This document shows, one piece after another, positions 97 to 24,580 of a stretch of DNA of 64,000 nt (positions are counted from its first letter, which is position 1; every line of letters starts with the position of its first letter). Below the pieces are notes generated by a model. The model had not been told where the DNA came from, did not search any database, and worked only from the letters and a program-made list of their open reading frames with translations. Made by a program: the position numbers and the translations under genes. The stretch is from Candidatus Poribacteria bacterium (GTDB lineage Bacteria; Poribacteria; WGA-4E; WGA-3G), in assembly GCA_022394755.1 (NCBI GenBank), contig JAGFCA010000020.1, forward strand, positions 62,001-126,000, read 5' to 3'.

Positions 97-1143
97 ATGA
101 CAAACCAAAAGGTTCGATTAACTGCAACAGTAAAATGTGCTGGCTGAGCATCTAAGCTTGCTCCGGGAGAGCTTGAACATATCTTAGATAACTTGCCGAA
201 ATCAACAGACCCAAATTTACTTGTAGGAACAGAGACATCTGATGATGCTGGTATCTATCGTCTTTCAGGTGATCTTGCATTAGTTAATACAGTAGATTAT
301 TTCACACCTATAGTTGATGACCCCTATACATTTGGAGCTGTAGCAGCAACTAATTCCTTAAGCGATGTGTATAGTATGGGAGGTAAACCGAAAACAGCAT
401 TAAATATTACCTGTTGGCCCAAAGCTGATCTCGAATTATCAATCCTCGGTGAAATCATCAAAGGGGGTGCGGATAAAGTCGTAGAATCAGGTGCTGTTCT
501 TATCGGTGGACATACTGTAGATTCACCAGAATTGATGTATGGATTAGCAGTTACAGGGATCGTTCATCCTGAGAAATATATAAAAAACTATGGAGCACAA
601 CCGGGAGATGTCTTAATACTAACGAAGAATCTTGGGGTCGGTATACTAACAACAGGGTTAAAATTTGACAAAATTAGCGATAAAATTTTACCTCAAGTTG
701 TTGAATCTATGACAAGATTAAACGCTTCGGCTTCAGAGGTTATGTTGAAGTATAATGCCACCGCTTGTACAGATGTAACGGGGTATGGTCTACTTGGCCA
801 TGGCTCTGAAATGGCATCAGGAAATGATATGGGTCTAATGATTAACAGTAAATCTGTTCCATTTTTCGCAGATGCTCCATCTCTTGTTGCACAAGATACA
901 TACACCCAAGCGTATCTGGCAAATACGGCATTTCTATCTGATAAGGTGACATTTGAGTCAACAGTAACTGAAGAGATGCGGCATATTATGATGGAAGCAG
1001 AAACATCTGGCGGACTTCTTTTTGCTCTTCCTTCTCAGAATGCGGACTCTGCTATAGAAGAACTACATTCTGGTAATTGTCCAGAAGCGGCAATTATTGG
1101 AGAGGTAGTAAATTCTGATAGTGCTCACATTCAGGTGTATTAA
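97..1143 (+). CDS. selD: Selenide, water dikinase SelD, selenocysteine-containing
   Basis: Makes selenophosphate from selenide and ATP, the selenium donor for selenocysteine and selenouridine. The frame open from 193 lacks the N-terminus of the family. Reading back in the same frame to ATG 97 restores 32 residues and crosses a single TGA at 145-147, in the context CAG-U-ASK. Counted from ATG 97 the UGA codon is residue 17 and the next lysine is residue 20, matching Cys17 and Lys20 of E. coli SelD. The restored length of 348 aa is normal for the family. A small hairpin (GCTC / GAGC, loop 164-168) lies 16 nt after the UGA, where a bacterial SECIS apical loop is expected. There is no clear Shine-Dalgarno before ATG 97. 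pyrE follows 22 nt after the stop. Sec-containing SelD is an established variant of the family. Confidence 0.93.
145..172 (+). promoter_or_regulatory. In-frame UGA (Sec17) and candidate bSECIS hairpin of selD
   Basis: The TGA at 145-147 is followed by AAGCT (154-158) and AGCTT (170-174), which can pair, or alternatively by an inner 4-bp helix GCTC (160-163) / GAGC (169-172) with loop CGGGA. The apical loop lies about 17-21 nt from the UGA, inside the usual bSECIS spacing. The helix is short, so the fold is plausible rather than proven. Confidence 0.6.
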
Positions 1144-23509: not shown

Positions 23510-24580
23510 ATGAGATTTATTTTTTTGTTATTTATAATGCTTCAATTTATTTTTCTTCCTCTTGGGTTTGCCCAAGAAAGCTGAGGTGCCTGAAGTAACC
23601 CCACAATTCCTCAAGGTGGGGGAAGTGAAGTTAGGTTAACTTCAGATAATAAGAGATTTCAAGCATCTGTTAGTACACGCGGATTTAACGCCCAGGGTGG
23701 ACACCACGAAGCCAAAGGTTTATCTCCTTCTGGTGATGTAATCTTAGTTCCATTACACCGTCATGAAGTGGAGTTGAGTGTAGTCCGATTTGATTTTGGC
23801 TTAAAATATCATATCAATAACAATTGGCGTTTGGAAGCTGGATTTCCTTATGAAATAAAAAGTCAAAATGCGAGCATTGTTGAGGTAGAACCTGCTGATA
23901 GCGTGCAGAAAGAGGCAATGTTACGTAATCAAGACATCCATCATCGGAACGAAACCTACCGTGGTATTTCAGATATGGATTTTCTGATAGGGTATTCTAC
24001 ACATGGCATATTAATGCAACATGATACACTATTTGCTAAGTTTGGGACGACTCTGCCATTTGGTAAAACCGAAGAAGATCCGTGGATACTTGGGAACAAT
24101 GGGTTGAAGCATCTGCATATCCAATTTGGTACGGGTACATTTAATCCGATAGGTGATCTTCGGTACAGTTTGCCATTTTATGGTGGTTTAAGTGGGAATG
24201 TTAGTGTAAGAGGCAAGTATCCCTTCTATGAAAATAGTAAAAACTATCGTGGTTCTTGGGATGTTACTTATACTGCTGGATTAAATTACATAGTCAATAA
24301 ATGGTTATCTCTTCAGTCAAGTTATCTTGGATTGTATCAGTCCTATGCTCATTGGTCAGGTGAAATTGACATCAATACAGGTTTGCGATTTAGTATGGCA
24401 TCGTTGGGAGCATCGATTGCAACACCCTATAATGTGCCATTGTCGATAACAGTTATGTTTCCTATACAACAGGAAACACTTTATGATGATAGTGTCAGAT
24501 TGTCAGATGGAACATATGAAGAGAACGATGCATTTAAATTGGGTATGTTAGTTTCTGTGATGGCGTTATATTCCTTTTAG
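23510..24580 (+). CDS. Predicted double-selenocysteine (UxxU) outer-membrane beta-barrel protein
   Basis: The uninterrupted frame from 23768 lacks a secretion signal. Extending back in frame to ATG 23510, which has AAAGGAAA 6 nt upstream, gives a 356-aa protein with a clear signal peptide (hydrophobic 3-20, cleavage likely after GFA at 19-21). Directly after it comes ESUGAUSNPTIPQGGG, crossing TGA at 23582-23584 (residue 25) and 23591-23593 (residue 28). The rest is rich in alternating aromatic/hydrophobic strands and ends ALYSF, typical of an outer-membrane barrel. The two UGAs are spaced like a C-x-x-C redox or metal motif. No other disruption exists, and a 6-bp GC-rich hairpin lies 5-28 nt after the second UGA. 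The same window encodes a UGA-containing SelD. Alternative: a pseudogene with two opal codons, less likely. The substrate is unknown. Confidence 0.8.
23582..23621 (+). promoter_or_regulatory. Two UGA codons and candidate bSECIS hairpin
   Basis: TGA at 23582 and 23591 are followed by the stem CCCCAC (23599-23604) / GTGGGG (23616-23621) with an 11-nt loop. The loop begins 11 nt after the second UGA and 20 nt after the first, in the range of bacterial SECIS elements. It is the most GC-rich stretch of an AT-rich neighbourhood. Confidence 0.6.

Follow-up and report, generated by a model that had tools for sequence, protein, structure and literature searches.

The window, the whole stretch of DNA analysed here (64,000 nucleotides), comes from a Candidatus Poribacteria genome represented by a 5.19-Mb assembly in 228 contigs. 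It contains a gene that very likely encodes a double-selenocysteine (Sec) outer-membrane protein (Table 1), a rating that leaves aside any role in metal chemistry and that was reached without proteomic, selenium or functional data. When TGA was read as U, the frame from the ATG at 23510 gave MRFIFLLFIMLQFIFLPLGFAQES-U-GA-U-SNPTIPQGGG..., a product of 356 residues with U25 and U28 before a final TAG. The two TGA codons are the only in-frame stops, without any other stop or shift. In the other two forward frames the same stretch holds 22 and 35 stops and in the reverse frames 19-23, so an otherwise open frame of 357 codons is not a chance occurrence. A Shine-Dalgarno-like sequence (AAAGGAAA) lies just 5′ of the ATG. 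The U25-G-A-U28 motif stands four and seven residues past the predicted signal-peptide cut, and Q22 is invariant in the family alignment. The initial annotation had claimed a single frame broken only by these two TGAs, a good ribosome site and a UxxU motif right after a signal-peptide cleavage site; the first claim held on retranslation and frame comparison, the second matches the sequence seen before the ATG, and the third held in both sequence and alignment.

Table 1. Positions of the gene, its parts and selD within the window
Feature	Position	Strand	Details
selD, itself predicted to encode a selenoprotein (TVKCAG-U-ASKL)	97..1143	+	TGA at 145-147; own hairpin GCTC[CGGGA]GAGC
Putative double-Sec outer-membrane channel gene	23510..24580	+	356 aa and TAG stop; TGA codons 25 and 28 very likely decoded as Sec
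Signal peptide, residues 1-21	23510..23572	+	Predicted cut between LGFA and QES; read from sequence and alignment, no SignalP run
UGA 1 (Sec25)	23582..23584	+	Cys (TGT/TGC) instead in 17/97 distinct homologues, two independent events
UGA 2 (Sec28)	23591..23593	+	TGA in 97/97 distinct homologues
Hairpin H1, candidate bSECIS	23599..23623	+	From alignment; two alternative 5′ arms (23599-23604 or 23607-23613), one 3′ arm
Hairpin H2, 7-bp stem, 3-nt loop starting with G	23627..23643	+	GAAGTTA-GGT-TAACTTC; alignment covariation
Predicted 12-stranded beta-barrel domain, COG4313/FapF-like	23657..24577	+	Model strands from residue 50 to 355

The ORF finder lists only 23768-24580, a product of 270 aa from a GTG at 23768 that corresponds to the truncated 3′ part of the gene. 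Gene finders that cut at the two "stop" codons thereby remove both the signal peptide and the Sec motif. The window provides a positive control for Sec decoding in selD, which the ORF list begins only at 193.

Probable selenocysteine decoding and conservation of the motif

A check of the genome for selA, selB and selC, proposed in the initial annotation, was favourable. A gene for tRNA-Sec (78.5 bits, anticodon TCA) lies directly 3′ of a 644-codon selB, and selA (526 bits) and the Sec-containing selD are present, meeting the criterion that selA, selB, selC and selD all be found. Across the phylum every selD gene above the cut-off carries one TGA (76/76), and the SelB wing domain was detected in 77 of 85 genomes, 62 of them among the 67 that carry the channel family. 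The wing search gave no match in five family-carrying genomes (G004, G011, G030, G052 and G062; estimated completeness 73-94%), possibly owing to absent contigs, an explanation that was not verified. TGA is still a normal stop codon here: it ends 6 of the 37 long ORFs of the window, and several members of the double-Sec family themselves terminate with TGA at a conserved C-terminal Phe. Most Poribacteria genomes also encode a second selD-like paralogue, which lacks TGA.

Profile searching across the phylum detected the double-Sec family in 67 of 85 genomes, all of one order, and a protein search of 40 relatives detected it in 32; one Poribacteria genome has a protein 88% identical over the channel protein of the window. 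No further members were found outside Poribacteria among the 387 genomes searched (~300 of them outside the phylum), and no relatives were found in plasmids. The full public protein databases lay outside the scope of the search, for family distribution and for novelty alike.

Almost every intact copy carries just one or two in-frame stops, which lie at the motif and are all TGA, and the motif Q-[ED]-S-U-G-A-U-S-N-P is kept at overall identities of 36-88%. Of 97 distinct copies read at the DNA level, every one has TGA at codon 28; at codon 25, 80 have TGA and 17 a Cys codon (TGT/TGC), giving the variants C-P-A-U and C-S-A-U. Neither TAA nor TAG occurs at either codon in these 97 sequences, nor do otherwise intact copies among them show TAA, TAG or a frameshift at the motif. 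One Cys form (Q-E-S-C-P-A-U-S-N-P) is shared by a paralogue clade in genus g2, and the other (D-S-C-S-A-U-S-N-P) occurs in genome G028, in a single paralogue whose nearest relatives have UGAU; on a maximum-likelihood tree the Sec/Cys label at U25 needs 2 changes, compared with 15.8 when labels are shuffled. Because U25 is exchanged for Cys and for nothing else, the pattern is that expected of a selenoprotein. Cys was never found at codon 28 (0/97), so the criterion of Sec/Cys exchange is met for U25 and unmet for U28 alone. Two of the checks set by the initial annotation, that homologues have Cys or Sec at both positions (UGAU in 80, CPAU or CSAU in 17 of 97) and that related strains lack TAA or TAG at the two sites, were thus favourable; its expectation of CxxC or UxxC homologues failed, the natural variant being CxxU.

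Codons 29-86, the stretch between UGA2 and the internal GTG, would be untranslated if translation restarted at that GTG. Comparison of close relatives gave dN of 0.007-0.091 against dS of 0.18-0.50 in this stretch, showing purifying selection. In every pair with both values, dS here was below that of the rest of the gene (ratio 0.31-0.81), as would be expected if RNA structure adds constraint. With a reading frame conserved across the UGAs and coding potential 3′ of them, this selenoprotein criterion was met.

The genome of the window also carries a second intact UGAU paralogue (L101, G000:C44:11675-12760), 57% identical to the window copy. Decayed copies, frameshifted or fragmentary, were seen in G010, G034, G019 and G037 (L114, L115, L116 and L123), and L115 retains UGAU followed by NNP. 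One further copy (L077, G057:C5:4400-5479) shows a third TGA, at a site that is Trp (TGG) in its relatives, probably a sequencing error or a fresh nonsense change.

RNA hairpins downstream of the UGA codons

Published bSECIS rules place the loop 16-37 nt after the UGA, with G in the first two loop positions (PMC13188914). The apical loop of H1 lies 20 nt past UGA2 and 29 nt past UGA1 in the window, and 19 and 28 nt past them in most relatives, inside this range. H1 is variable: its 3′ arm pairs with either of two tandem 5′ arms, each alternative being just 81-86% paired. Folded from the window sequence by itself, H1 was no better than shuffles (z about -0.6), and since single-sequence folding z-scores were not significant, the alignment was used for RNA structure.

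H2 is the best-conserved hairpin, with 99.3% of cells paired over 43 sequences, 14 compensatory cells and compensatory changes at 4 of its 7 pairs. Some of these changes preserve pairing by altering the protein, as in L025-L028 (GTC AGT TTG to GTC GGT TCG). Codon choice in H2 is nearly invariant as well: the Ser codon is AGT in 82/82 copies, compared with 23% at other sites of these genes, and the Thr codon is ACT in 56/56, compared with 20%. At 40 nt from UGA2, H2 is beyond the usual range of 16-37 nt. In L029, the most divergent of the intact members, the second hairpin is a different one, whose loop comes 33 nt past UGA2. Applied strictly and with a limit of <= -5 kcal/mol, the bSECIS rules are satisfied by a hairpin after UGA1 in 27/80 sequences and after UGA2 in 33/97, compared with 2.8% of random in-frame positions, and about two thirds of members have no such hairpin. 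A covariance model of the RNA element, run on 13 genomes, gave strong scores for the double-Sec family only and otherwise weak noise. The Rfam model SECIS_1 (RF00031) had no match in the genome and none in the controls, and is uninformative.

The claim of a GC-rich hairpin at bSECIS distance therefore held only in part: the hairpin at 23599-23623 exists, with its evidence supplied by the alignment, but the initial annotation missed the better-conserved one at 23627-23643, and its SECIS assignment was too clear-cut. We infer that one RNA element serves both UGAs. In the absence of binding data, SelB binding to H1 and SelB binding to H2 brought near by H1 are both left as options.

Predicted barrel and candidate function

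An AlphaFold2 model built on 45 homologues (pLDDT 79) shows a barrel of about 12 strands; its N-terminal 45 residues have low confidence, and residues 15-45 are not confidently placed. The top solved structures matched by Foldseek were FapF (5O65/5O67/5O68) and the COG4313 channel 4RL8 (E 1e-9 to 1e-10, probability 1.00), at about 12% identity and with TM-scores of only about 0.5-0.7. This fold comparison supports the outer-membrane barrel proposed initially from the sequence alone. Among curated profiles none scored above its cut-off (the window protein reached 22.1 bits for OMP_b-brl, cut-off 28.7), matches to PF13557 were weak (4/32 members, best E 6e-5), and a sequence search of the PDB with the channel protein found nothing.

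COG4313 channels are occluded by their first ~14 mature residues, which fold into the lumen from the periplasm (PMC4493636). By analogy, the mature N-terminus Q-E-S-U-G-A-U-S-N-P would put both Sec residues in a luminal plug. Invariant positions of the family include seven histidines (H65, H83, H85, H144, H145, H201 and H203), of which H83/H85 and H201/H203 form i,i+2 pairs that would face the same side if they lie in a strand. The same genomes encode a distant His/Met-rich outer-membrane family (L149-L156; HAPIGVMGDHxHKxGE...), probably metal-related, which is related to the channel over barrel residues of about 175-275 (E 1e-4 to 1e-6) and differs from it in having no stops and no Cys or Sec motif at the mature N-terminus. 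The invariant histidines and these His/Met-rich relatives were together taken as pointing to metal or metalloid chemistry, an inference that has not been shown.

In the reading we favour, the locus would encode a secreted outer-membrane channel with Sec at U25 and U28. The UGAs would be decoded by the SelA/SelB/SelC/SelD system of the organism itself, with insertion directed by RNA hairpins directly 3′ of them, within the coding sequence. Up to this point the reading has good support. The barrel is grouped structurally with the 12-stranded COG4313/FapF channels, and its mature N-terminus is predicted to reach into the barrel lumen from the periplasm. On that analogy, the Sec pair would sit in the plug near the barrel-borne H65, H83/H85, H144/H145 and H201/H203 and act as a chalcogen pair. 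The role that best fits is the binding of a soft metal or metalloid, by which the channel would be gated or loaded, although this function is inferred, not shown, and could as readily prove wrong as right.

The main alternative to a metal role is a redox centre, in which U25 and U28 form a reversible diselenide (a selenenylsulfide in the CxxU paralogues). In the manner of UxxU/CxxU thiol oxidoreductases, the pair would either reduce substrates in the periplasm or act as a switch for the plug. Several points favour it: the CxxU spacing is usual for redox motifs, redox enzymes make up the majority of selenoproteins (PMC13188914), SelL has a diselenide in a redox motif (cited in PMC2398784), and U25 is exchanged only for Cys. 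Against it, the fold is not thioredoxin-like in the AlphaFold2 and Foldseek comparisons, no thioredoxin- or DsbD-like partner was found among the neighbours scanned, and the seven invariant histidines suggest metal chemistry. On balance we lean against the redox reading without dismissing it.

The remaining alternatives concern whether Sec is encoded at all, and both are all but excluded. UGA might be read as another amino acid through a suppressor tRNA or a code change; any read-through would restore the frame, but there is no direct support for this, and it was rejected on the grounds that TGA still ends 6/37 long window ORFs and several family members, that the full Sec machinery is present in the genome, and that Cys is the sole natural substitute at codon 25. 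The locus might instead be a pseudogene disabled by nonsense changes, or a leader peptide of 24 codons might precede a separately started 270-aa protein; this finds some support in the ORF finders' shortened call and in the few true wrecks of the family (G010, G034 and G019), but was rejected because the frame is conserved over the same two TGAs across an order, with no TAA or TAG there in 97 distinct sequences, dN is well under dS between UGA2 and the internal GTG, residues 25-86 are conserved, and an internal start would lose the signal peptide and the first barrel strand.

Returning to the function of the channel, a bolder version can be entertained as a possibility. The outer-membrane channel would be selenium-dependent, with a gate under metal or redox control built from two obligatory Sec residues of the N-terminal plug and the invariant barrel histidines. 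Its two UGAs, nine nucleotides apart, would both be served by a SECIS of two hairpins, the main SelB element being placed farther away than the accepted spacing allows.

Relation to known selenoproteins and genomic context

The predicted 12-stranded barrel and the short N-terminal segment ahead of strand 1 are shared with the COG4313/PF13557 (Phenol_MetA_deg) channels and FapF. Identity to these is only about 12%, however, and they are described without a Sec motif, whereas the Poribacteria family has UxxU and seven invariant histidines. A 2026 inventory covers 119 families of prokaryotic selenoproteins (PMC13188914). Its outer-membrane barrels, likewise predicted, are the GSU2204-type MtrB/PioB barrel (NF041027) and a TonB-dependent receptor of the FCYXU type (NF049945), which have one Sec each in other motifs and did not match the double-Sec channel in an NCBIfam scan. 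Its UxxU families are a Prx-like thiol:disulfide oxidoreductase, a metal-binding/MerA-like family (NF041115) and the FmdB family (PMC13188914); these, like eukaryotic SelL, have the same two-Sec spacing but, judged by domain names, are Prx-like, metal-binding or regulator proteins, not barrels.

The initial claim of an undescribed family thus needs qualification: selenoproteins with UxxU and selenoproteins of the outer membrane are already known as separate cases (PMC13188914), and it is their combination that is absent from the 119-family inventory. No selenoprotein model matched in the NCBIfam scan of 32 members (best E 0.0016), and the literature search found no paper combining "Poribacteria" and "selenoprotein", some pairing "Poribacteria" with "selenocysteine". 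Judged against the inventory and NCBIfam, not the full public databases, this is a new predicted selenoprotein family, unusual in its location, in its double Sec and in having no Cys form at the second position. Selenoprotein families are generally reported to have Cys homologues, whereas the second Sec of the channel was never Cys in the sequences examined.

The family would add a double-Sec cell-envelope protein to a list dominated by thioredoxin-fold enzymes. With no second-site Cys homologue in the genomes examined, searches based on Sec/Cys pairs could struggle with it, and truncated outer-membrane barrels in other Sec-using candidate phyla are worth re-inspection. The gene offers a testable case both of two closely spaced UGAs with one RNA region and of selenium use at the outer membrane of animal symbionts (sponge-associated bacteria).

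In six close relatives the gene neighbourhood showed ordinary synteny only, with an ABC permease/ATPase and DUF6807 upstream, and no functional partner was found in it. In many family genomes (e.g. G001, G008, G014, G017, G080-G082 and G084) selD and the channel gene lie 21-51 kb apart (about 1000-23510 in the window), with exceptions in G010 (150 kb) and G083 (far); this proximity probably reflects old gene order rather than function.
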